Origin: a virus
Length of the DNA stretch: 64,000 nucleotides
Reading direction: 5' to 3' (one strand)
Virus record (IMG/VR): IMGVR_UViG_3300022926_000003
Span: 1-64,000 of that record
Notes under the pieces: generated by a model
Seen by the model: only the letters and a program-made list of their open reading frames with translations
The model's database searches: none
Told to the model about the DNA's origin: nothing
Translations under genes and position numbers: made by a program
Shown: positions 21,541 through 55,743 of the stretch, in pieces
Numbering within the stretch: the stretch's first letter is position 1
Layout of the letters: each line of letters opens with the position of its first letter

Positions 21541-22359
21541 ATGAGTATAGAAGCATCAGCAAAGGGAGCAATAGTATCACATGAGATACCTTTTACTTAC
21601 CTACAAGCTAGTCTAGAATTTAACGACTATGACTATTTACTCCCTCATTTGTATGATCAATTTGAGGAGTACAAAGAATTCTTCCAAAGAAGCAACCATG
21701 CAGGTAAGCGTCACATTATAATGGATAATTCTCTCCATGAACTTGGAGCACCTTACTCAAAAGGTAGAATGATTTCTATTATTGAGGAAATAAAACCCGA
21801 TGAATTTATAGTACCAGATGCTTGGGAAGACGCCACCCAATCAATGCGCCAAGCTAAAGAATGGAGCTTTATTGAATTACCTGAAGGAGTAAAGAAAGTT
21901 GCAGTAGTACAAGGTAAATCATTTGATGACGTAGTAAAGTGTTATCAAACATATAAGTGGTTGGGTTACACCAAAATTGCATTTTCATATGGAGCTAGCT
22001 ATTATAACGATATATTCCCACATCCTAATAAGGATATTGGGAAAGCATTGGGACGTCAATTAGTTATTAGCAAAATGATTAATATGGGTCTTATTGGAAA
22101 AAGCGATAAAATTCATCTTTTAGGTTGTTCCCTCCCACAAGAGTTTTTATATTATAAGGATGTAAAACAAATTGTAAGCATAGACACTTCAAATCCTGTA
22201 ATGGCGGCATTTGATGGTACTCTTTATAATAATTGGGGTCTAGATTCTAAACCTAAAACTAAAATAGATGAAGTAATTGATGCTAAATTTGATGAAGCCA
22301 TATATGAAGCTATACGACATAATACTACATACTTTAAATTAATTAATAATATAACATGA
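21541..22359 (+). CDS. dpdA: TGT-fold, DpdA-like 7-deazaguanine DNA transglycosylase candidate
   Basis: 272 aa. The order of conserved blocks follows tRNA-guanine transglycosylase: MDNSLHELG (61-69), VPDAWEDA (91-98), VVQGKS (122-127, compare IVQG of TGT), and LLGCSLPQEFLYYKD then IDTSNP (nucleophile-position Asp at about 215). The TGT zinc motif CxCxxC is absent, as expected for DNA-acting or phage relatives. The gene overlaps queC by ATGA. With QueC, QueD, QueE and FolE nearby, exchange of guanine in DNA for a preQ0-type base is the best inference. A tRNA-acting TGT is the alternative. Confidence 0.75.
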   Translation: MSIEASAKGAIVSHEIPFTYLQASLEFNDYDYLLPHLYDQFEEYKEFFQRSNHAGKRHIIMDNSLHELGAPYSKGRMISIIEEIKPDEFIVPDAWEDATQSMRQAKEWSFIELPEGVKKVAVVQGKSFDDVVKCYQTYKWLGYTKIAFSYGASYYNDIFPHPNKDIGKALGRQLVISKMINMGLIGKSDKIHLLGCSLPQEFLYYKDVKQIVSIDTSNPVMAAFDGTLYNNWGLDSKPKTKIDEVIDAKFDEAIYEAIRHNTTYFKLINNIT

Positions 22360-23192
22360 ATAAACAAGCAGTTTTATCTTTAAGTGGAGGAATGGACAGC
22401 TCCACAGTTTTGCTAAGACTATTAGCAGAAGGCTACGAGGTTACAGCTTTGAGTTTTGATTATGGACAAAAACATAAAGTTGAACTCTCCCGTGCTCGTG
22501 AATTAGTAAGCCACCTTAATACAGTTAGACTTGAACAATCCCCACTAGGTGAATTTAGGGAAAAATACCCAGAAATTAAATATGGAGTAATTAAACTTGA
22601 TGGTTTGGCTCCTATGCTTAATAGTGCCCTTGTAGAAGGTGGAGATGAGGTGCCTGAAGGACACTATGAACAGGAAAACATGAAGGAAACAGTTGTTCCT
22701 AATAGAAATAAAATTTTCTCATCAATAATTCAAGCGGTAGCACTATCAATAGCAAATGAAAAAGATACTGAAGTACATATTGCGATGGGTATTCACGCAG
22801 GTGATCATGCTATATACCCCGATTGTAGACAAGAGTTCAGGGACGCTGACTATGCAGCTTTCACCGAAGGTAATTGGAACGCTGGGCGCGTTACCTATCA
22901 TACCCCTTACCTCAGTGGGGATAAGTATGATATTTTGCTTGATGGAAGAAGATGCTGCGATGAATTGGGACTTGATTTCAACCGAGTTTATTCCCTTACA
23001 AATACTTCTTATAAGCCCCTTAGTTTTGGTGATAAGTGGTACAGCGACTATAAATCTGCTTCTTCGGTGGAACGTGTCGAAGCGTTTATTAAGTTGGGGA
23101 CAGAGGATCCGGTACAATATGCTGATGAGAGAGGACCCGTTACATGGAATACTGTAAAACAACATGTTGAACAAGTTTTAGCTGAAGCCTAA
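22356..23192 (+). CDS. queC: QueC-like 7-cyano-7-deazaguanine synthase
   Basis: 278 aa. Converts 7-carboxy-7-deazaguanine to preQ0 with ATP and ammonia. The PP-loop SLSGGMDSS is at 8-16, with FDYGQKHKVEL, VVPNRNKIF and GDHAIYPDCRQEF as in the family. The C-terminal zinc ribbon is altered: where bacterial QueC has TCY and CGxCxxC, this protein reads NTSYKP and GDKWYSDYKSASSVER, so all four zinc cysteines are missing. It sits between the TGT-fold gene and queD with overlaps on both sides. Confidence 0.88.
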   Translation: MNKQAVLSLSGGMDSSTVLLRLLAEGYEVTALSFDYGQKHKVELSRARELVSHLNTVRLEQSPLGEFREKYPEIKYGVIKLDGLAPMLNSALVEGGDEVPEGHYEQENMKETVVPNRNKIFSSIIQAVALSIANEKDTEVHIAMGIHAGDHAIYPDCRQEFRDADYAAFTEGNWNAGRVTYHTPYLSGDKYDILLDGRRCCDELGLDFNRVYSLTNTSYKPLSFGDKWYSDYKSASSVERVEAFIKLGTEDPVQYADERGPVTWNTVKQHVEQVLAEA

Positions 23193-23650
23193 TGTTTATA
23201 TCAACTAAAGTATTTGATGGGTTTAGCTGTGTGTTTCGTCAAGCTAAAGCAGAAGGCACACATTGTAGATTTCTCCATGGTTATGGAATCTCGTTTAAAG
23301 TATGGTTTAAAGGGGAACTAGACGAACGTAATTGGGTTTGGGATTTTGGGGGTATGAAACGTGCTAAAACCGAAATTGATGGTATGAATCCTAAAGCTTG
23401 GATGGACCATATGTTTGATCATACTATGCTTGTAGCTGAAGACGATCCATTCCTAGAATCATTTCGTAGAATGGATGAAGCAGGTGTAATTCAACTTAGA
23501 GAAATACCAGCAACTGGAGCAGAACGTTTTGCTCAGTATATTTATGAGAAACTTAACAAGTTTGTATTAGAAGAAACAGATGGACGTGTTAAGGTTATGC
23601 AAGTAGAATTTAGAGAACACGGAAAAAACACAGCAATCTATGCTGAATAA
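23192..23650 (+). CDS. queD: QueD-like 6-carboxytetrahydropterin synthase
   Basis: 152 aa. Makes 6-carboxytetrahydropterin from dihydroneopterin triphosphate, the product of FolE. The block HCRFLHGYG matches the catalytic Cys and CxxxHGH region, and MFDHTML matches the catalytic Asp/His. Two of the three usual zinc histidines are replaced: AAH becomes CVF, and HGH becomes HGY. Either zinc is bound differently or the enzyme is divergent. It starts on the last base of queC. Confidence 0.8.
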   Translation: MFISTKVFDGFSCVFRQAKAEGTHCRFLHGYGISFKVWFKGELDERNWVWDFGGMKRAKTEIDGMNPKAWMDHMFDHTMLVAEDDPFLESFRRMDEAGVIQLREIPATGAERFAQYIYEKLNKFVLEETDGRVKVMQVEFREHGKNTAIYAE

Positions 23651-23678
23651 ATAAAAGTTAATAACAAAAATCAAAATT

Positions 23679-24299
23679 ATGAAAAAAACAATTATGGCCT
23701 TTGGGTTGGCCTTAACCACCCTAGTTAGTTCTGCACAAACAACTGTTGTTGATGTTATTGTAAATAGCGAAGACCACACCTTGTTAGAAGCTGCAGTAGT
23801 AGAAGCAGGATTAGTTGAAGCTTTAAGCGACACAACAGGAACATTTACAGTATTTGCACCTACAGATAGTGCATTTATTACTTTAGCAACCTCACTCCAA
23901 CTCGAACCCACTGATCTATTAGAGTTACAAAACTTGGCAGATATTCTTACATATCATGTTGTGGGAACCACAGCTCTAAGTACTGATCTGTATGATGGTA
24001 TGGAAGTAACAGCACTAAACAATGGTACTTTAACTATTGGTGTAGATAGCACAGGAGTCACAGTTGAATATGCCATGGTCACAGTTGCTGACCTTGTCAC
24101 AGATAATGGTGTTGTTCATGTTATTGATGCTGTTCTTGTACCTAGTAGTACTAATTCAATACTAGAGCTAGAAAATAAAACCCCACAAAATAATATTTAC
24201 TATAATATTATGGGTCAAGAAATTGATAGCTACGATCAAATTCCCTTTAACTCCATTTATATTAAAAATGGTGAAAAGTTTCTAAAGATCGAAAGATAA
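23679..24299 (+). CDS. Secreted fasciclin (FAS1) protein with type IX sorting tail
   Basis: 206 aa. A signal peptide MKKTIMAFGLALTTLVSSAQ precedes one FAS1 domain (about 22-152) with the FTVFAPTDSAF box and the H2-type VVHVIDAVL ending. After a linker, the C-terminus (NIYYNIMGQEIDSYD to FLKIER) has the form of a type A T9SS sorting domain (Y-N-x-x-G-Q-E near the start, basic end). FAS1 domains mediate adhesion. It is inserted between queD and queE, splitting the modification operon. Export through the host type IX system is inferred. Confidence 0.75.
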   Translation: MKKTIMAFGLALTTLVSSAQTTVVDVIVNSEDHTLLEAAVVEAGLVEALSDTTGTFTVFAPTDSAFITLATSLQLEPTDLLELQNLADILTYHVVGTTALSTDLYDGMEVTALNNGTLTIGVDSTGVTVEYAMVTVADLVTDNGVVHVIDAVLVPSSTNSILELENKTPQNNIYYNIMGQEIDSYDQIPFNSIYIKNGEKFLKIER

Positions 24300-24300
24300 T

Positions 24301-25074
24301 ATGCTTAAAAGGATAGAAGATTACGATAAAGTATTACCTGTATTAGAGGTATATCGATGCGTGCAAAGTGAGGGCTCCCGTTTCGGGCGCCCCACTATTG
24401 CCGTTCGAACTACAGGATGTACCCACCGCTGTTGGTTTGGTGAAGGTGGGTGGTGTGATTCGTGGTATACTTCAATCCACCCTGAAAAAGGTACGTTTAC
24501 ATTTAATGACATTATCAATATTTATGATGAGAATCCTCAAGTAAAAGAGATGATGTTAACAGGGGGTTCACCAACAATGCATGCTGCCCTTGTAAATGAA
24601 CTTACCCATTTTGCCAACGAAAGAGGAATTCTCATTACAATCGAAACCGAAGGGTCTCACTTCGTGGAAACGGATTTTCCACTTGGTCTCGTATCCCTTA
24701 GCCCTAAGTTTTCTAATTCTGTCCCTCGTGTGGGTATTACTACTCCCGGTGGTAAAGTGGTTGATGAAAGGTTTGTCACTCAGCATAACAAGTTTAGACT
24801 CCATTATGAGAACATTCAGAAAATGATTGATTTTCATAGTGATTATCATTATAAACCAGTTTGGGATGGTACCGATGAGTGTTTAGCTGAAATTGAGGAA
24901 TTTAGAGTTAAAATGAATATTCCTAAAAATAAAACATTTGTTATGCCTGCAGGGGATACAAGAGAAACACTAGTTGAAATGTACCCTAAAGTATTTGAAA
25001 TGGTCGCTGAGCATGGATATAATATGACTGGTCGAGACCATATTATAGCTTATAATACAGAACGTGGAGTTTAA
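24301..25074 (+). CDS. queE: QueE-like radical SAM 7-carboxy-7-deazaguanine synthase
   Basis: 257 aa. Converts carboxytetrahydropterin to 7-carboxy-7-deazaguanine. The N-terminus has the QueE pattern VQSEGSRFGRPTIAVRTTGC. The iron-sulfur motif reads CTHRCWFGEGGWCDSW, CX3CX7C instead of the usual CX3CX2C, an insertion of five residues before the last Cys. TGGSPTMH matches the SAM-binding GGEP-like region. It is followed by a strong terminator, ending the transcription unit. Confidence 0.85.
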   Translation: MLKRIEDYDKVLPVLEVYRCVQSEGSRFGRPTIAVRTTGCTHRCWFGEGGWCDSWYTSIHPEKGTFTFNDIINIYDENPQVKEMMLTGGSPTMHAALVNELTHFANERGILITIETEGSHFVETDFPLGLVSLSPKFSNSVPRVGITTPGGKVVDERFVTQHNKFRLHYENIQKMIDFHSDYHYKPVWDGTDECLAEIEEFRVKMNIPKNKTFVMPAGDTRETLVEMYPKVFEMVAEHGYNMTGRDHIIAYNTERGV

Positions 25075-25093
25075 CGACTTACAAATTTATGCC

Positions 25094-25121
25094 AAAAAGG
25101 GCACCTTCGGGTGCCTTTTTT
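25094..25121 (+). terminator. Rho-independent terminator after queE
   Basis: AAAAAGGGCACC, loop TTCG, GGTGCCTTTTTT: an 8-bp GC stem capped by a C(TTCG)G tetraloop with an A-tract before and T-tract after. It may act on both strands. Confidence 0.92.
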
Positions 25122-25131
25122 AATATTTATA
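25122..25131 (+). promoter_or_regulatory. AATATTTATA motif upstream of the metalloprotease
   Basis: Exact 10-mer directly after the queE terminator and 24 nt before the ATG at 25156. Its position between a terminator and a new gene strongly suggests a promoter. Confidence 0.55.
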
Positions 25132-25155
25132 ACCGAAAGTTACAACCAAACCGCT

Positions 25156-27153
25156 ATGAAAAAACTGATTTTCCTATTTTTACTACTTATGACATTGCCC
25201 CTTTATGGGCAAGAAAGATGTGGCACAGATGCTCTTTTTGAGCAACAGCTACAAGATCCTAAATTTAAACGAAGCTATTTAAAACTTGAAAAAATAGCTA
25301 AGGAAGCAGAAGAAGCTAAAAGGGCTTCATCTATGCCTGATCTTCCTATAACTGTACCGGTTATTGTCCATATTATTCACCTTGGTGAGCCCTATGGAGT
25401 GGATAACCATTTACCTATTGAATATGTTCAAGAAGCTATTGATAATGCCAACCAAAACTTTGCAGGTGAGTTTAGTGACGACCCCACAGCAAATACAGAA
25501 ATAGATTTTTGTATTGCAAATTTATCTACTAGTGGTGCTCCAATTGAAGGTATTAGATATTATAATTGGGATGATTTAGGTTTCGGTGACATTTCTGATT
25601 TTTACTTAAATAATGTAAATGTTTCTAATTTAATTGGGTATGATCGTAGTAATTATTGTAATATTTTTGTTGCACCTTTTACTAGTCCTTTAGGATTTGC
25701 TTATTTAGCCCCTTCAAATTATGGGGTATTTGTAGGTACAAATTACTTTGGAATAACTGGGTATCAAAATAATTATGCTTTAAATAGAACACTAGTACAC
25801 GAACTAGGACATTATTGTGGGTTATTCCATACATTCCACAATACTTCTACGTGTAATCCTACTGGTAATTGCGTCAGCCAAGGTGATGCTGTATGCGATA
25901 CCCCACCAACTACAGGTTCTGCGGGATGTGGACCTTTATCATGTCCTGAAACATTGGTGGAGAATTTCATGGATTATTCTAATGACCAATGCATGGATAG
26001 TTTTACCCAGGGTCAAGCTTTAAGAATGCTTAGCAGACTAGAAACAGCTCGCCCAGGGGTAGTAAATAACACACTAGCTTGTGGTGCTATTGATGGTGTA
26101 GATGCTGGTGTAAGTGGTGTTACTATACCAAATCTTGGTTGTGACCCTACACAAGATATAGAATTTATATTAACTAGTTATGGTGATACTTTAACTGAAA
26201 CCACTATTAATTATACAATTAATGGTGAAGAGTTATTTATGATTTGGACAGGTAATTTAGGATTTGGTGAAAGTGAAACTATAACTATACCTAATTTTGA
26301 AGTAGGTTATGGTCTAGTAGATATTGAAATTAATGTAGATGCCTTAGGAGATGTCTACGCAGATAATAACACTCAGTCAGTTCAACTTGACAATTATGAA
26401 GGTTCTCTTATTGATATTAATATACAATTTGACGCCCTTCCCTACGGATTCCATTGGGTTTTATACGAGGCTGATAGTTTAAACAATCCTATAGGAGATG
26501 CTATTAGTGGGGTAGGAAGCCAGACATATACTAATGCTGATTATTCTTGTGAATCTGAAACTTATAGTTTTTGTTTACCTGAAGGTAACTATGTTTTAGT
26601 GTTAGAAGATATTTTTGGTAATGGGTTACATTATTATTGTGTAGATAATCCTGATGAGTATGGGCTTATCTCAATTATAAGTGGGAATGATACATTAAAC
26701 TCAATCCAAGGAGGGTGGGCTGATGGTGAACCTTTACCCTTTTATGTAATACCCTCTTTTTGTCCCCCTAACGATTGTCCATGGGATGTAGATGGTAATG
26801 GATTTGTATGGGTAAGTGATATACTACAAATTATACAATATTATGGACTTGAAGTAGAACCTTGTAACCAATTTGATATCAACCAAGATGGGGTTGTAGG
26901 GGTAGATGATATATTAGATGCTATTGCTAATTTTGATACTGAATGTGGAACAGGTTTAATGTCTCCCCCATTAGATAGTTTTAGACGATTAGTACAAGAG
27001 GCAGGAGAAGAAGTTGTTACTCAAAAACTATATAATTTGCAAGGACAAGAAGTACAATATAATGATTATCTAGATACAGGAATCTATTTTATAGTTCAAG
27101 AATGGACAAATGGTTTTGTGATTAGTAAAAAAATCTATCACCAACAACATTAA
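25156..27153 (+). CDS. Secreted M43 (pappalysin-type) metalloprotease with type IX sorting tail
   Basis: 665 aa from the ATG at 25156, which gives a clean signal peptide MKKLIFLFLLLMTLPLYGQ; a longer reading from 25111 would start inside the terminator. The zinc motif HELGHYCGLFH begins at about 215, and the Met-turn ENFMDYSND follows. After beta domains come two dockerin-like calcium repeats (DVDGNGFVWVSDIL, DINQDGVVGVDDIL; about 545-590). The C-terminus, KLYNLQGQEVQYND to KKIYHQQH, is a type A T9SS sorting domain. It probably cuts surface or matrix proteins outside the host. It overlaps the next gene by one base. Confidence 0.85.
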   Translation: MKKLIFLFLLLMTLPLYGQERCGTDALFEQQLQDPKFKRSYLKLEKIAKEAEEAKRASSMPDLPITVPVIVHIIHLGEPYGVDNHLPIEYVQEAIDNANQNFAGEFSDDPTANTEIDFCIANLSTSGAPIEGIRYYNWDDLGFGDISDFYLNNVNVSNLIGYDRSNYCNIFVAPFTSPLGFAYLAPSNYGVFVGTNYFGITGYQNNYALNRTLVHELGHYCGLFHTFHNTSTCNPTGNCVSQGDAVCDTPPTTGSAGCGPLSCPETLVENFMDYSNDQCMDSFTQGQALRMLSRLETARPGVVNNTLACGAIDGVDAGVSGVTIPNLGCDPTQDIEFILTSYGDTLTETTINYTINGEELFMIWTGNLGFGESETITIPNFEVGYGLVDIEINVDALGDVYADNNTQSVQLDNYEGSLIDINIQFDALPYGFHWVLYEADSLNNPIGDAISGVGSQTYTNADYSCESETYSFCLPEGNYVLVLEDIFGNGLHYYCVDNPDEYGLISIISGNDTLNSIQGGWADGEPLPFYVIPSFCPPNDCPWDVDGNGFVWVSDILQIIQYYGLEVEPCNQFDINQDGVVGVDDILDAIANFDTECGTGLMSPPLDSFRRLVQEAGEEVVTQKLYNLQGQEVQYNDYLDTGIYFIVQEWTNGFVISKKIYHQQH

Positions 27154-28628
27154 TGAAGAAATTATTATTAGCTTTACTTTTTTTACCATTTAGTATATTA
27201 GGACAATGTGATCTTGAAATACTTGATTTTAATGTTAATGATGCTACAATTACTGTAGCTTTTAACAATACAAATAACTGTGGGGGGACAGGTGGGCCTG
27301 ATGGTATATCTGAAATTCAATTTGGGTTTCAAGCAATAGATAGTAACTGTAATGCTATGAATATTGGTTGGGATTTCCCTAGTGGAATATCTATCCCTGA
27401 TAACAGTAATCATCCTGGATGGTTATACTCAGCTACTACAACTGAAATATTTGGTAATTGGACTAATAACTATGGTCCTGAATTACAACCCCCTTACTAT
27501 ACGGGGGATACTTTAACTTTTCCTTTGGATAATGTTTATCAATCAACAAATATCAATACAACTTCTCAACTTGCCAATAATTTACAATATTGGTATGATG
27601 AAGGTTATAGCATTCAAGCAGTAATATGGCAGATTAGCTATGGGCCTACAATGTATGCTGAAGATGGGGGTTGGGCAGAAGTAGGGGCAAATGGTGATGG
27701 GACCAGTTATGGGAGTGGGTTGTATGAAGATACTAACTTTTTAGACAATTGGATAATCGTAGGACCTTGCGAGGAACCCGAAGAACCATTAATATTAGAT
27801 GAATGTAATAACCCAATAGCTTGTAATTACAACAACCAATGGTTTGAACCAGGTGGGTTTTGTATTTATTGTGATACTCCTAATGGTGAAGAACTATGTA
27901 ATGAATACCAAAACTCAGACGGTTATTGGGATTTTTATTTTAATGCTTTTGATTGTCCTGAAGAAGTTGAGTGTGATACTGTTTACATAGAACTACCCCC
28001 TGATACTATATATGAAATAGATACTCTTATTATTACTGTAACTGAAATTGATACACTTTATATAGAGCTACCTCCCGATACAATTATTGTAACTGAAATT
28101 GATACACTCTATATAGAACTACCCCCGGACACAGTTACTGAAACTATATTTATAACAGATACAATTACTGTAACTGAGACAGAATTTATTTTTGTAACTG
28201 ATACTGTAATTGAAACAGAATACATCTATTCTGTAGATACAATTTATATAATACAAAGTGATACAGTTACTATATATGAGTTTGTAGAAATAGATTGTGA
28301 AACAGGTTTACCTTGTAGTGAAATTAGGAATAAAGAATGTAATGTTTACATTCCTAACGCCTTCACCCCAGATAATGATGGGTATAATGATGGGTGGGAG
28401 ATAGTACTAGATCCTGAATGTTGGACTGATGTTAAGGTTCAAGTAATAAGTAGATGGGGAAATATAGTATGGGAATCTTATGATGTAAATAACTTAGTTT
28501 GGAATGGTAATTTTAGAGGGGGTGATTATTATGTACAAAATGAAATGTATTTGTGGTGGTTCCAAGCAAGGAAAGTAGGGACAGCTGAAGTAAAAGAATT
28601 AAGAGGACACGTTATAATTTTACGTTAA
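27153..28628 (+). CDS. Secreted stalk protein with gliding-motility-type (T9SS type B) C-terminal domain
   Basis: 491 aa. Signal peptide MKKLLLALLFLPFSILGQ. A beta-rich domain (20-210) and a Cys-rich stretch (about 218-275) are followed by a stalk of repeats such as VTEIDTLYIELPPDT (about 275-385). The last 95 residues, CNVYIPNAFTPDNDGYNDGW through SRWGNIVWES to the HVIILR end, match the CHU_C/gliding-motility-associated domain used as a type B T9SS signal. It follows the metalloprotease without a gap. A surface adhesin anchored by the host type IX system is the likely role. Confidence 0.8.
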   Translation: MKKLLLALLFLPFSILGQCDLEILDFNVNDATITVAFNNTNNCGGTGGPDGISEIQFGFQAIDSNCNAMNIGWDFPSGISIPDNSNHPGWLYSATTTEIFGNWTNNYGPELQPPYYTGDTLTFPLDNVYQSTNINTTSQLANNLQYWYDEGYSIQAVIWQISYGPTMYAEDGGWAEVGANGDGTSYGSGLYEDTNFLDNWIIVGPCEEPEEPLILDECNNPIACNYNNQWFEPGGFCIYCDTPNGEELCNEYQNSDGYWDFYFNAFDCPEEVECDTVYIELPPDTIYEIDTLIITVTEIDTLYIELPPDTIIVTEIDTLYIELPPDTVTETIFITDTITVTETEFIFVTDTVIETEYIYSVDTIYIIQSDTVTIYEFVEIDCETGLPCSEIRNKECNVYIPNAFTPDNDGYNDGWEIVLDPECWTDVKVQVISRWGNIVWESYDVNNLVWNGNFRGGDYYVQNEMYLWWFQARKVGTAEVKELRGHVIILR

Positions 28629-28679: not shown

Positions 28680-29339
28680 ATGAAAGTTACGCTATTAAAT
28701 GTTACACCAAATGCTGAAGAGCATATAGTAGAAGTAGCACGTGTATCTAGCTCACGTAAAGACAAAAAAAGCAAACCTGAAGGTCTTCTTAATTACCTAA
28801 TTAAACATAAACATTGGTCTCCATTTGAACATGGACATGTTACTTTTGAAATCGAAACATCAAAAGCAATAGGTATACAATTAATCAGACACCGTTCATT
28901 TTCATTTCAAGAGTTTAGCCAACGATACCAAGATGTTAACAAGCTTGAAGGTATGTTTGAACCTATTGAACTAAGAGCACAATGTGAAGATAATAGACAA
29001 AGTTCAACAGAAATAATTAATCCTGAAATTTTTAATAACAATCAAAGTTATTTTAAAGGTAAAGCATCTGAAGTTATAGATGCTCATTTAAAAAGAACTC
29101 ATGCTTTATATAATGAGCTTTTAGAAGCAGGAGTAGCTCGTGAACAAGCACGTATGGTTCTTCCACTTGCTACAACTACTAAAATTCATATGACAGGTAG
29201 TATTCGTAGTTGGATTCATTTTCTTGAACTAAGAGATGATGAACATGCTCAAAAAGAAATCCAATTAGTAGCTAAAGAGATTAAAAAACACTTTATAAAC
29301 AAATTCCCAGTGATCTCGAACGCTTTAGGATACGTATAA
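28680..29339 (+). CDS. thyX: Flavin-dependent thymidylate synthase
   Basis: 219 aa. Makes dTMP from dUMP with FAD and methylene-tetrahydrofolate. The signature RHRSFSFQEFSQR (R70) is the ThyX RHRx7S motif, and HGHVTFEIE and HLKRTHALYNELL belong to the FAD/dUMP fold. Its 51-nt leader contains TTCGTAAAGTTA, a weak relative of the promoters seen elsewhere. It complements nrdAB for dNTP supply. Confidence 0.92.
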   Translation: MKVTLLNVTPNAEEHIVEVARVSSSRKDKKSKPEGLLNYLIKHKHWSPFEHGHVTFEIETSKAIGIQLIRHRSFSFQEFSQRYQDVNKLEGMFEPIELRAQCEDNRQSSTEIINPEIFNNNQSYFKGKASEVIDAHLKRTHALYNELLEAGVAREQARMVLPLATTTKIHMTGSIRSWIHFLELRDDEHAQKEIQLVAKEIKKHFINKFPVISNALGYV

Positions 29340-29341
29340 GC

Positions 29342-29785
29342 ATGAAACATTTATTTATATTATTTAATTTAGTTCTTATAATAGCAAGCGTTTGCCATTC
29401 CCAAAAAATAGGATATGAGTTAAGAACAAACGGTAAATCATACCTTACTATAAGTCATAAAATACACAATAAAGGTGGACTTGAATTAAGACATAAAACT
29501 GATTTAGGTGAAAATCGATTTACTTATAGACACAATTTTAAAGTAACAGACAAAGTAGTATTTAGTGTCCCACTTCACTACAAAAGAGAAAAAAACGAAC
29601 CTACTTGGGAACCACGTTTAATTTATAAGTTTGAAAAATTTAAACTTTGGGTACAACAAGAATTTTGGTTCGACGAAATATATAATTTTGCAATAGCAAC
29701 AGATATTCCATATAAAAACTACGTTTATAGAGTAGGATGGGATACTTCAAACACAATACGATTTAGAATTTCAATTAAAATTTAA
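29342..29785 (+). CDS. Putative outer-membrane or exported beta protein
   Basis: 147 aa. A signal peptide MKHLFILFNLVLIIASVCHS is followed by alternating amphipathic strands ending WDTSNTIRFRISIKI, with a C-terminal strand like that of small beta-barrels. It lies between thyX and a phosphate permease, so an outer-membrane channel partner for phosphate is possible. I recognise no family. Confidence 0.55.
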   Translation: MKHLFILFNLVLIIASVCHSQKIGYELRTNGKSYLTISHKIHNKGGLELRHKTDLGENRFTYRHNFKVTDKVVFSVPLHYKREKNEPTWEPRLIYKFEKFKLWVQQEFWFDEIYNFAIATDIPYKNYVYRVGWDTSNTIRFRISIKI

Positions 29786-29794
29786 CACAACAAA

Positions 29795-30733
29795 ATGAGT
29801 TTATTAGCAATGGTAGGGTTTTGCCTTGCCGGTTATTCAGTTATCGCTAACGACAGCGTTCAAACACTAGGCACTTGGATTGCCTCTAACAGAGAAAAAT
29901 TTAAATGGTACGTTATGTGGGCTGCAGCTTCTGCAGTAATGATAGGTACTATGGTTTATGGGTGGTATGCCTATGATGGAGATATATCATATGGAAGATT
30001 AACTAAAATACCATTCCAAGAAGTACAGTGGTATCATGCACTAGCACCTTTAGCACTAGTTGCACTTACTAGAAAAGGTATTCCTGTATCTACTTCATTC
30101 CTTGTACTCTCAGCATTCGCCTCTACTTTTGTACTTGAAAAAATGCTACTTAAAAGTGTAGTGGGTTACGGATTAGCAGCAATAGTAGCATATACCCTTT
30201 GGTTTATTATCTCTAATTTCTTTGATGAAAATAAAGATATTAAGGAAGAAAATAAAAAATATTGGAGAATAGGACAATGGTTCACTACAGGATTCCTATG
30301 GTTTACTTGGTTGTCTCATGATGTAGCTAATATTGCTGTATTCCTCCCTCGCCAACTTTCAGTTGTAGAGCTTATAGGAGTAATTACCTTCTTTACAGCA
30401 GGTCTAGGATGGATTTTTTATCAACAAGGAGGTAAAATACAACAAATTGTCTTAGACAAACAAAATACAAAATATGTTAGATCAGCTACTTTAATTGATT
30501 TAGTGTATGCTTTCCTATTACTTTATTTTAAACAAATAAATAACATTCCTATGTCAACTACCTGGGTATTTGTTGGATTGTTGTGTGGTAGAGAGTTAGC
30601 ATTGAATACATACCTTACTAAAAAGGGTAATCTTAAGCAAGTATTCCCTATTGTAGCTAAAGATTTCCTAAAATTATTAGTAGGATTAATGGTATCAGTA
30701 GCAATAGTATTATTAATACATTATGTACTTTAA
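29795..30733 (+). CDS. pit: PiT-family inorganic phosphate permease
   Basis: 312 aa with about nine membrane segments. Both PiT signature halves are visible: IANDSVQTLGTW at about 17 and HDVANIAVF at about 170, plus PVSTSF and PMSTTWVFVGLLCGREL near the second half. The inverted N-D repeats are the phosphate/cation site of this family. It would raise phosphate uptake by the infected cell. It follows a predicted outer-membrane protein; a 35-aa membrane peptide starts inside its end. Confidence 0.85.
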   Translation: MSLLAMVGFCLAGYSVIANDSVQTLGTWIASNREKFKWYVMWAAASAVMIGTMVYGWYAYDGDISYGRLTKIPFQEVQWYHALAPLALVALTRKGIPVSTSFLVLSAFASTFVLEKMLLKSVVGYGLAAIVAYTLWFIISNFFDENKDIKEENKKYWRIGQWFTTGFLWFTWLSHDVANIAVFLPRQLSVVELIGVITFFTAGLGWIFYQQGGKIQQIVLDKQNTKYVRSATLIDLVYAFLLLYFKQINNIPMSTTWVFVGLLCGRELALNTYLTKKGNLKQVFPIVAKDFLKLLVGLMVSVAIVLLIHYVL

Positions 30734-31478: not shown

Positions 31479-31961
31479 ATGAAAAATTTATTTTTAACTC
31501 TTACATTAATCTTGGGAGCAACTTCATTTGCTGCCGCCCAAGGTGATACTACTACGTGTTGTGAAACCCACAACCACGATAACGCTAAAGGAGATTGGTA
31601 CATAGGTACTGGTGACATCTCTAATACTGCATGGACTCAGTGGATGCTTACCCCCACTGTAGGGTATGCTTTTACTGATGACGTTATGGCAGGATTTTCT
31701 TTAAATCAAGGAACCACTACTGATAGCACAGGTGCTACTGTAGCAGGTGATTTGAATTTAGATGTCCATGCTCGTTATTTTTACAAAGGTTTTTTTGGGT
31801 ACATTGGTACTCAAAACCTAACAACCGACTTTGGACTAAATATTGGTGTTGGTAAATTGTTTACTACTACTACTAATAATATGTACTTAGACCCTCGTGT
31901 AGTTTATAACACTACAGATGGAACCGCTAACTTGAGAATTGGGTTTGGCCTAAAATTCTAA
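31479..31961 (+). CDS. Outer-membrane beta-barrel protein
   Basis: 160 aa from the ATG at 31479, which gives the signal peptide MKNLFLTLTLILGATSFAAAQ; an ATG at 31413 would add an unlikely extension overlapping the upstream gene. The mature part has strand-turn repeats (WMLTPTVGYAFTDDVMAGFS, LNLDVHARYFYKGFFGYIGT) and ends in IGFGLKF, an aromatic C-terminal strand. Resembles small Bacteroidota outer-membrane barrels. It may alter the host surface, for example to block superinfection. A terminator-like hairpin follows. Confidence 0.65.
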   Translation: MKNLFLTLTLILGATSFAAAQGDTTTCCETHNHDNAKGDWYIGTGDISNTAWTQWMLTPTVGYAFTDDVMAGFSLNQGTTTDSTGATVAGDLNLDVHARYFYKGFFGYIGTQNLTTDFGLNIGVGKLFTTTTNNMYLDPRVVYNTTDGTANLRIGFGLKF

Positions 31962-32041: not shown

Positions 32042-32554
32042 ATGGAACAAGCAATAAGTGAAAAAGACTTAGACTTTAAATTAAAGTTAATAGCTAAAAA
32101 AATTAATGACGAACATAAAGATGATCCTACCCCTGTAGTATTAGTTTGTATACTAAATGGTGGATTTATGTTCTTTAGTGATTTGGTAAAACAAATTACA
32201 ATCCCTATTGAAATAGATTTTATTCGTTGCAAATCTTACTTTGGTAGAAAACAAGGTGATTTAGTAGTTAGTAAAGACTTAGAAACTAAAATTAAAGGCA
32301 AACATGTTTATCTTGTAGACGATATTTTAGATTCAGGTAATACTATGAAAGCAGTCTCTAAATTCCTCTCAGTTAAAGAACCAAAAACAGTTACTCCTGT
32401 TGTAGCAATTTATAAGGAAAGCGGGGATTTTGATAAAGTTTATCATATCTTATACCAACCTACTGATTCTGTATTTGATCCTTGGTATATAGGTTATGGT
32501 ATGGATGATGATAAGGGCCACAATAGAAATTTAAGTACAATTTATACTATATAA
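32042..32554 (+). CDS. Purine (hypoxanthine-type) phosphoribosyltransferase
   Basis: 170 aa. The PRPP-binding motif VYLVDDILDSGNTM (about 90-103) and the early VLVCILNGGFMFFSDLV loop are those of hypoxanthine/guanine phosphoribosyltransferases. The end contains FDPWYIGYGMDD, also seen in HPRT. It would salvage purine bases released from host nucleic acid. It shares one base with folE. Confidence 0.85.
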   Translation: MEQAISEKDLDFKLKLIAKKINDEHKDDPTPVVLVCILNGGFMFFSDLVKQITIPIEIDFIRCKSYFGRKQGDLVVSKDLETKIKGKHVYLVDDILDSGNTMKAVSKFLSVKEPKTVTPVVAIYKESGDFDKVYHILYQPTDSVFDPWYIGYGMDDDKGHNRNLSTIYTI

Positions 32555-33249
32555 TGGAAAACAAACGAAGAAAGTTACACAACGATATTGAGTGTGTACC
32601 TACAGGTTATGCAAATGGGGCTGCAATGGATCGTCCACTTACCCCCCATGAAAAAGAAGTTATGATTAATGAAGCAGCAGATGCCTATAGTAGGTTTCTA
32701 GATGCTTTAAAATGTGATTGGAGAAATGATCCCAATTCAATGGAAACCCCAAAACGAGTAGCAAAGGCATATGTAAATGATTTATGGGCGGGTAGGTATG
32801 ATGGATTCACTGATATTACGTCTTTTCCTAGTGATGGTTATGACGGTATCGTCATTGAACGTAATATTCCCCTTACTAGTATGTGTTCCCATCATCACCA
32901 AACTATTCATGGAGTTGTTCATATTGGTTACGTTGCAGGTGCAGAAGGAAGAGTAATTGGTTTGTCTAAATTAAACCGGATTGTAGAACACTTTGGTCGT
33001 AGAGGAGCAATCCAAGAACAGCTTACATCTGCTATTCACCAAGGTGTAGAAAAAGTATGTGAAGGTAATTTAGGGGTTATTGTTACTGTAGTTGCAACCC
33101 ACAACTGTGTAAGTTGCAGAGGAATTAAGCACTCAGGTGCAGCGATGGTTACCACTAAAGCAAGTGGAGTATTTAGAGATGATAGTAATCAAGCCCGTAA
33201 AGAGTTTTTTGATAGTTTAAAAATCAATAACGGAGGGCATCAAATATAA
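32554..33249 (+). CDS. folE: GTP cyclohydrolase I
   Basis: 231 aa. Converts GTP to dihydroneopterin triphosphate, the first step to folates and 7-deazaguanines. Zinc ligands are intact: SMCSHHHQ (about 109-116) and HNCVSCRGIKH (about 183-193). GRVIGLSKLNRIVEHF is the family core. It is separated from the que genes by 7.5 kb but supplies QueD's substrate, and folate for ThyX. It overlaps the phosphoribosyltransferase gene. Confidence 0.92.
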   Translation: MENKRRKLHNDIECVPTGYANGAAMDRPLTPHEKEVMINEAADAYSRFLDALKCDWRNDPNSMETPKRVAKAYVNDLWAGRYDGFTDITSFPSDGYDGIVIERNIPLTSMCSHHHQTIHGVVHIGYVAGAEGRVIGLSKLNRIVEHFGRRGAIQEQLTSAIHQGVEKVCEGNLGVIVTVVATHNCVSCRGIKHSGAAMVTTKASGVFRDDSNQARKEFFDSLKINNGGHQI

Positions 33250-54438: not shown

Positions 54439-55039
54439 ACAACAGATACAAGCAGCTATGAATAAGACTATGTCTAACCGTGCAGCCGCTCGTTACTTAG
54501 GTGTTTCCTACATTCACTACAAAAAATGGGCCAAAAATTATGAAGCCACTGAAGAAGGTTACCCAGACCTATTTGAACAACATAAAAACCAAGCAGGTAA
54601 AGGTATACCCAAGTTTTTAAATGGTAGTGTAAAACAACCTGCTGTGTTAGACATTATAGAAGGTAGAGTTGATAGTTCCCACTTTTCAGCTGCTAAAATT
54701 CGTGAGAGAATGATAGGGGAGGGTTATTTAGAGGATTGTTGTTCAAATTGTTCATTTAATGAACGCAGGGTGTTAGATTACAAAGTTCCGTTAATAATGA
54801 ACTTTAAAGACAATAATAAAAAAAATTATAAATTAGATAACGTAGAACTCCTTTGTTATAATTGTTACTTTTTAACAGTTGGGGACATATTTAGTGACAA
54901 ACAAATCCAAACAATGGAGGAATATAAACCAGTTAATGAAGGTCAAGTAGATTGGGAAATTGATGATTATCACCTTCAACGCCTAAAAGAACTAGGTTTA
55001 GAAGATAAAGATGAATTAGATTTGATATCAAGGATATGA
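54413..55039 (+). CDS. Degenerate HNH-fold protein with N-terminal HTH
   Basis: 208 aa. An HTH-like segment, MSNRAAARYLGVSYIHYKKW (about 19-38), is followed by a zinc-finger fold with CCSNCSFNERR (about 103) and NVELLCYNCYF (about 145-156). In active HNH nucleases the middle strand has a D-H pair and the end is CxxCH; here the strand reads LIMNFKDNN and the end CYNCYF, so both catalytic-site histidines are missing. A DNA-binding regulator derived from a homing nuclease is the likeliest reading. Confidence 0.6.
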   Translation: MPKAKPLSKQQIQAAMNKTMSNRAAARYLGVSYIHYKKWAKNYEATEEGYPDLFEQHKNQAGKGIPKFLNGSVKQPAVLDIIEGRVDSSHFSAAKIRERMIGEGYLEDCCSNCSFNERRVLDYKVPLIMNFKDNNKKNYKLDNVELLCYNCYFLTVGDIFSDKQIQTMEEYKPVNEGQVDWEIDDYHLQRLKELGLEDKDELDLISRI

Positions 55040-55743
55040 GCAAAGTAATAGAATGGTCAGGATATAAATGGTTAACCCAAGAAAGGTGGGGACAGGTACA
55101 CAAGGATAAACCCTATTGTTGGTATGATCCTAGTGCAGTTCAAATTACATTAAAAAACTATTTAACTTTAAAAACCCAATACAACCCTAAGGAGTTTAAA
55201 GAATTAGGAATTAGACCTAAAGTAGGTGTAGGTTTGGTATCATGTGCTACTGAATTTGGTCCTGGCATATTTGAAATAAAAGCTAAATTACCATATGGTA
55301 AGAACTTATGGCCTGCTTTTTGGATGTGGAGTTGGGACAGTTGGCCCCCTGAAATTGATATATTTGAAGGTTATTCTCATAAAAAACCAAATTATCATAG
55401 GTTTAATTGGAACAAACCTTGGGCTTGTAGGCATATAGATACAAATGTACACTACTCTGAAGAGGGTAAAAATAAAATGTGGGGACCTAAAAGTCATTTT
55501 ATGGGCTTTAAAGATCCCACAAAACACTTCTTAAAGTACAAATTAAATTGGAGCTTAGACTCATTAAAGTTTTATTACAATGACAGATTAGTCCGTGTAA
55601 TAAGTGATCCAGTTGTAATGAAACAGGTAAATAATACTAAAATGAATGTTGTAATAAATAACCATGTTACACAGGATATGCCCTATTCAGAAATACCACT
55701 TAGTAACTTTACTATAAAATACTTTAAGTATGAAAAAGCGTAA
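55036..55743 (+). CDS. Glycoside hydrolase family 16-like glycanase
   Basis: 235 aa, a single catalytic domain. WPPEIDIFEGY (about 113-123) is the GH16 E-x-D-x-x-E catalytic signature with both Glu residues and the Asp intact. FEIKAKLPYGKNLWPAFWMW precedes it, and FLKYKLNWSLDSLKFYYNDRL follows as in family beta strands. GH16 enzymes cut laminarin, agar, carrageenan or related beta-glycans. No signal peptide, so it could be a virion depolymerase or act at lysis. ATGA overlap with the HNH-like gene. Confidence 0.85.
   Translation: MSKVIEWSGYKWLTQERWGQVHKDKPYCWYDPSAVQITLKNYLTLKTQYNPKEFKELGIRPKVGVGLVSCATEFGPGIFEIKAKLPYGKNLWPAFWMWSWDSWPPEIDIFEGYSHKKPNYHRFNWNKPWACRHIDTNVHYSEEGKNKMWGPKSHFMGFKDPTKHFLKYKLNWSLDSLKFYYNDRLVRVISDPVVMKQVNNTKMNVVINNHVTQDMPYSEIPLSNFTIKYFKYEKA

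Follow-up and report, generated by a model that had tools for sequence, protein, structure and literature searches.

A T4-like phage of Bacteroidota encodes a protein with a type B sorting signal for the type IX secretion system

The type IX secretion system (T9SS) is largely confined to Bacteroidota, where it also powers gliding, and a virus whose genes appear to be addressed to it raises the question of what such a virus might place outside its host, and by which route. The question is posed by positions 23679-28628 of the window, i.e., bases 1-64000 of an IMG/VR virus record of 100,680 bases. Here a first-pass annotation had described three secreted proteins with T9SS C-terminal signals: a FAS1 protein and an M43 metalloprotease with type A tails, and a stalk protein with a type B domain. 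The three open reading frames are indeed located there, but a QueE gene (24301-25074) separates the FAS1 gene from the other two, and the C-terminal signal was recovered for the type B protein and not for the FAS1 and M43 proteins. What can be stated with most support is that at least one phage product carries a T9SS type B sorting signal; this protein is under maintaining selection, and its head has so far been found in viral records only. Given this address label on a phage protein, a stalk of viral origin is probably exposed on the surface of the infected cell. The features of the locus are as follows:

23679-24299, + strand: FAS1-domain protein, 206 aa, with a putative signal peptide and a short tail (YYNIMGQ...)
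24165-24296, + strand: short C-terminal tail of the FAS1 protein, without a match to any type A model; also present in FAS1 proteins elsewhere among viral records
24301-25074, + strand: QueE-like radical SAM gene between the FAS1 and M43 genes (just below the Pfam cut-off, and from gene context)
25094-25121, + strand: intrinsic-terminator-like hairpin between QueE and M43
25156-27153, + strand: M43 metalloprotease, 665 aa, with a putative signal peptide, a dockerin-like region (below the Pfam cut-off) and a short type A-like tail
25798-25830, + strand: zinc-binding motif HELGHYCGLFH
26953-27150, + strand: short C-terminal tail of the M43 protein (YNLQGQEV...DTGIYF); no type A model match
27153-28628, + strand: candidate type B T9SS cargo, 491 aa, with a putative signal peptide (approx. 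aa 1-17), head domain, stalk and type B sorting domain
27204-27770, + strand: head domain (aa 18-206), 65-80% identical to crAss-like phage homologues
27975-28295, + strand: stalk of DTVYIELPPDT-like repeats
28338-28625, + strand: type B C-terminal sorting domain (TIGR04131/PF13585)
28680-29339, + strand: ThyX, conserved neighbour of the type B slot
29342-29785, + strand: small exported protein, probable outer-membrane barrel (barrel by eye), 92-93% conserved in sister phages

The record belongs to a T4-like phage that infects Bacteroidota. It carries T4-type genes for a single-strand binding protein, a UvsX-like recombinase, a processivity factor and baseplate wedge proteins, and inspection of the window revealed ribonucleotide reductase subunits, GroEL/GroES and a sigma-like gene; no T9SS machinery genes were noticed in the region. 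A search for a close isolated phage relative found none, the best match of the DNA polymerase being a Microcystis phage at 35%. The cargo genes belong to a co-directional run of QueC, QueD, FAS1, QueE, M43, the type B protein, ThyX, the small exported protein and a PiT-like transporter, within which the hairpin between QueE and M43 suggests a separate transcription unit for the M43 and type B genes. An alternative GTG start of the M43 gene at 25111 falls within this hairpin, and the gene was taken as 25156-27153. The T4-type late promoter motif TATAAATA is not more frequent than expected by chance. The Que genes are part of a 7-deazaguanine set in the window (21541-25074 and 32554-33249: QueC, QueD, QueE-like, GTP cyclohydrolase-like and possibly DpdA-like), which suggests that the phage DNA is modified.

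The C-terminal domain of the 27153-28628 product (residues 400-490 of 491) scores 39.3 bits against TIGR04131 (cut-off 35) and 44.5 bits against PF13585 (cut-off 27), so that the type B domain proposed earlier for the stalk protein is confirmed over both curated cut-offs. The N-terminus, MKKLLLALLFLPFSILGQ-CDLE, is signal peptide-like by eye (the signal peptides of all three cargo proteins were assigned by eye and with a simple pattern), and most homologues likewise have signal-peptide-like starts with a QC mature end. The head, of approx. 190 residues, is followed by a cysteine-containing linker and then by the repeat stalk. Confidence in the AlphaFold model lies mainly in the beta-rich C-terminal domain, and a Foldseek search with this model placed PorZ first among PDB entries (E 4e-3, which is above 0.001); the fifth entry (E 2e-2) was a chain from the T9SS translocon complex with RemZ. 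As PorZ is a T9SS protein carrying such a C-terminal domain, these matches are in line with a T9SS-type fold, in a suggestive manner only. It is likely that the type B protein is secreted, and its predicted routing by the host T9SS has good support from sequence and synteny and suggestive support from fold; the type A routing that had been claimed for the FAS1 and M43 proteins is not established.

The head domain belongs to no Pfam family, and its low-confidence model matched nothing in the PDB; one viral match, at 62% identity, was obtained. Viral contigs contain 28 matches to the whole protein, most of them 43-51% identical and most outside the lineage of the window. Aligned head domains are 65-80% identical to that of the window, and in two crAss-like homologues the identity is still 78-80% despite saturation of synonymous sites, which indicates that the head is old and constrained. 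The assignment of these relatives follows from gene families and gene order: in L011, the neighbours of the homologous gene include, according to PHROGs, the large terminase subunit (TerL, phrog_6681), the portal (phrog_6547) and several virion proteins; a portal of that family is also present in L030, and other loci have the same layout. On these grounds, L011 and L030 are read as crAss-like phages. A head-like stretch was also read by eye within a 998-aa type B protein of a 270-kb record (G013), a phage judging from its polymerase, helicase and head-tail adaptor. A search of a phage collection with the cargo proteins gave weak type B matches only, in two phages of 634-642 kb, one fragment for M43, and no match for FAS1. 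A bacterial origin of the head was considered and rejected, as the bacterial matches to the protein, among the matches listed, cover the C-terminal sorting part only, and a search of 396 Bacteroidota genomes gave no convincing match to the head, with one weak fragment.

The gene occupies a conserved slot. A type B domain over the cut-off lies beside ThyX in all 11 related records with a ThyX at least 80% identical, which, given near-duplicates, represent approx. six distinct lineages. The front parts of these proteins differ strongly, and their lengths range from 498 to approx. 1050 aa. In L073, L084, L087 and L088, a second slot, after NrdA, is occupied by a protein of 893-1010 aa whose type A domain exceeds the cut-off. 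The FAS1, M43 and type B genes are among the least conserved of the locus, with dN/dS of 0.21-0.40 vs. 0.06-0.10 for their neighbours, i.e., they evolve approx. two to five times faster.

Type B substrates depend on PorP/SprF-like shuttles (PMC12618676, PMC9143113), and reporters fused to type B domains are secreted with such shuttles (PMC12618676). The record encodes no PorP/SprF shuttle, and a host shuttle would therefore have to accept the type B domain; because orphan type B substrates are known in Flavobacterium johnsoniae (PMC12618676), the absence of a nearby shuttle is compatible with membership in this class. A different arrangement is found in the 270-kb phage, which encodes a PorP/SprF-family shuttle (L268:13458-14447, - strand; TIGR03519 179 bits, cut-off 90.55) at a distance of approx. 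7 kb from the gene for its 998-aa type B protein. No earlier description of a phage-borne shuttle of this type is known to us from open papers. The same phage also has a 125-aa protein (L270:8469-8846) that comprises barely more than a signal peptide and a type B domain, the latter below the cut-off. It is plausible that the host of the T4-like phage has a T9SS, in view of the cargo itself and of the presence of SprA in 59 of 60 genomes from a single, plausible Bacteroidota order that served as a proxy for the host.

Taken as a whole, these observations are best explained, with somewhat better than even confidence, by a phage type B protein that is carried to the cell surface by the host T9SS and a host shuttle and there causes exclusion or a change in adhesion. 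The product of 27153-28628 would be exported by Sec, and its C-terminal domain would be recognised by the host T9SS and a PorP/SprF-like shuttle, which would deliver it to the outer face of the infected cell. The repeat stalk would then project the head domain from this surface, where the head would most likely bind or mask a surface component and thereby block adsorption of rival phages or alter the adhesion of the infected cell. The M43 protease would probably use the same machinery, via its short type A-like tail, to reach the surface or the medium, and so, with less certainty, would the FAS1 protein via its own. That the purpose is the exclusion of rival phages is a guess, and one that might well prove wrong. 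With similar reserve, it may be proposed that several Bacteroidota phage lineages without close kinship have in common a phage-restricted toolkit for T9SS display, consisting of the conserved slot, interchangeable type B heads and, in the 270-kb phage, a shuttle, which would serve rival exclusion or adhesion control. If this is correct, T4-like phages keep dedicated genes for remodelling the exterior of the infected cell via the T9SS, type B carriers and the phage-encoded shuttle constitute concrete, testable protein pairs, and competition between co-infecting phages of the abundant phylum Bacteroidota may find its explanation here.

The role of the other two cargo proteins is less clear-cut. 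Both have export-like N-termini and recognisable domains (FAS1, PF02469, 96.5 bits vs. a cut-off of 22; M43, PF05572, 49.9 bits vs. 23, with HExxHxxGxxH intact as HELGHYCGLFH). The type A tails claimed for them did not withstand the model search: neither tail matches TIGR04183 or PF18962 at E<=10, and PF18962 has no match across the entire record, so that two of the three proteins lack a C-terminal domain match and only the type B protein has one, to TIGR04131. For this reason they are not classed as type A cargo, a designation that is probable at most. They might instead be exported to the periplasm or the outer membrane without the T9SS, leaving the type B protein as the sole T9SS cargo, which is a serious possibility though not the favoured one. 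It agrees with the missing model matches and with profile comparisons, in which the FAS1 tail resembles type A domains with a probability of 0.9%. It is harder to reconcile with the FAS1 relatives of two viral records (G014, G017), in which a type A domain over the cut-off directly follows FAS1, and with the P. gingivalis C-terminal domain, of which the last 22 residues are enough for secretion (PMC5445135). The M43 tail itself resembles phage type A domains with a probability of 52%, the likeness being to their second half, and the comparison of the FAS1 tail with the M43 tail gives a probability of 65%. The M43 tail profile had no match in 60 genomes, in a search that lacked a positive control. 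Moreover, the tail motif YN-x-x-GQ...Y is common to unrelated proteins (21 ORFs vs. four expected from shuffles) and enriched among exported ones, signal-peptide-like starts being present in 17 of the 21 vs. 116 of 1161 ORFs overall; this enrichment is supportive only, as the motif was defined after the tails had been seen and the 21 ORFs include near-duplicates.

Other readings concern the type B protein and the locus as a whole. It might be supposed that the cargo genes are host contamination of the contig, as their domains are typical for Bacteroidota chromosomes; synteny rules this out to the point of leaving it scarcely conceivable, since phage genes flank the cargo genes on both sides and the order is conserved across many independent viral contigs, and the suspicion that the contig is host-chromosomal was thus refuted. 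It is also improbable that the type B protein belongs to the virion and has an Ig-like C-terminal domain that merely resembles that of T9SS cargo. Ig-like domains are frequent on phage virions, and room for such a role is left by the crAss-like phages, whose counterpart of the gene is part of the head module, flanked by genes of the portal/capsid region and by further virion genes. Against it speak the signal-peptide-like starts with a QC mature end in most homologues, the scores over T9SS-specific cut-offs, and the T4-like phages, in which the type B gene is found amid genes of nucleotide metabolism. Rather unlikely, but less so, is a nutrient or matrix module in which the exported protease, the PiT-like transporter, small outer-membrane proteins and, in the sister phages, a TonB-dependent receptor remodel the envelope, feeding the infected cell or loosening its matrix, with the type B protein as an adhesin in their service. 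The intact zinc motif of the protease fits this proposal, as do the TonB-dependent receptors of the same type in L034 and L028 and the PHO4/PiT-family phosphate transporter at 29795-30733 (37.2 bits vs. a cut-off of 33.7; 95-96% conserved in sister phages), and the metallopeptidase of a Maribacter phage has been discussed as matrix-degrading (PMC8776804). However, heads that are variable and, as far as searched, phage-restricted fit conflict or recognition better than nutrition, and evolution is slow in the transporter and the small exported protein (dN/dS 0.06-0.09), in contrast to the cargo genes.

Surface display by a phage-encoded T9SS cargo, as preferred here, is not a new concept, contrary to the first-pass annotation, which knew of no such phage strategy. 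Bellas et al. (2020, PMC7468147) proposed that Cryophage, with three type A cargo genes, hijacks the T9SS of its host, possibly in order to compete with other phages or exclude superinfection, and de Jonge et al. (2019, PMC6949934) reported that crAss-like phages have T9SS sorting domains adjacent to their head section. What is added is the use of the type B route by T4-like phages, a slot that is conserved while its heads vary, the shared head and the phage-borne shuttle. Cryophage likewise infects Bacteroidota and has several T9SS-tagged proteins that vary between variants, but its genome is a 76-kb circle, its type A domains are found on an endoglucanase, a GH39 protein and a PA14 protein, and the portion consulted mentions no type B protein (PMC7468147). 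In the crAss-like phages, the sorting-domain proteins lie upstream of the head gene section, and crAss-like contigs contain the head domain of the window in that section; these phages are nonetheless an unrelated lineage with BACON domains, for which the part of the report consulted proposes no mechanism (PMC6949934). The type B cargo of F. johnsoniae also combines a signal peptide with a type B domain and reaches the surface (PMC12618676, PMC9143113), but it is encoded by bacterial genes that are often paired with their own shuttle gene, as in the 270-kb phage and unlike the window. Should exclusion hold, the superinfection-exclusion protein Ltp (PMC3952083) would offer a parallel as a phage-made surface protein that blocks rivals, although it is a lipoprotein of temperate Gram-positive phages and involves no T9SS.

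Several further observations were made in the window and in related records. A glycoside hydrolase family 16 domain (55036-55743, 51 bits) occurs in the window without an obvious signal peptide. Sister phages encode a full TonB-dependent receptor (L034:17729-20467, 912 aa; L028:1832-4630, 932 aa), for which Pfam plug and barrel domains were found in L034 and the best match among 46 Bacteroidota genomes is 42% identical; at the corresponding place, the window has a small exported protein (31479-31961). In L002 (928-4818), the products of six successive genes all begin with a leader like MKELNAFRKFLAE, which resembles the one that targets T4 internal proteins to the capsid; they are possibly packaged in the head. 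Finally, L001 (2095-9437) has what is probably a tail-fibre array, made up of three long paralogues that have their N-terminus in common (MWKPIxxPxxW...RKDIKGLPIMEARK), with a similar small gene after each of them.
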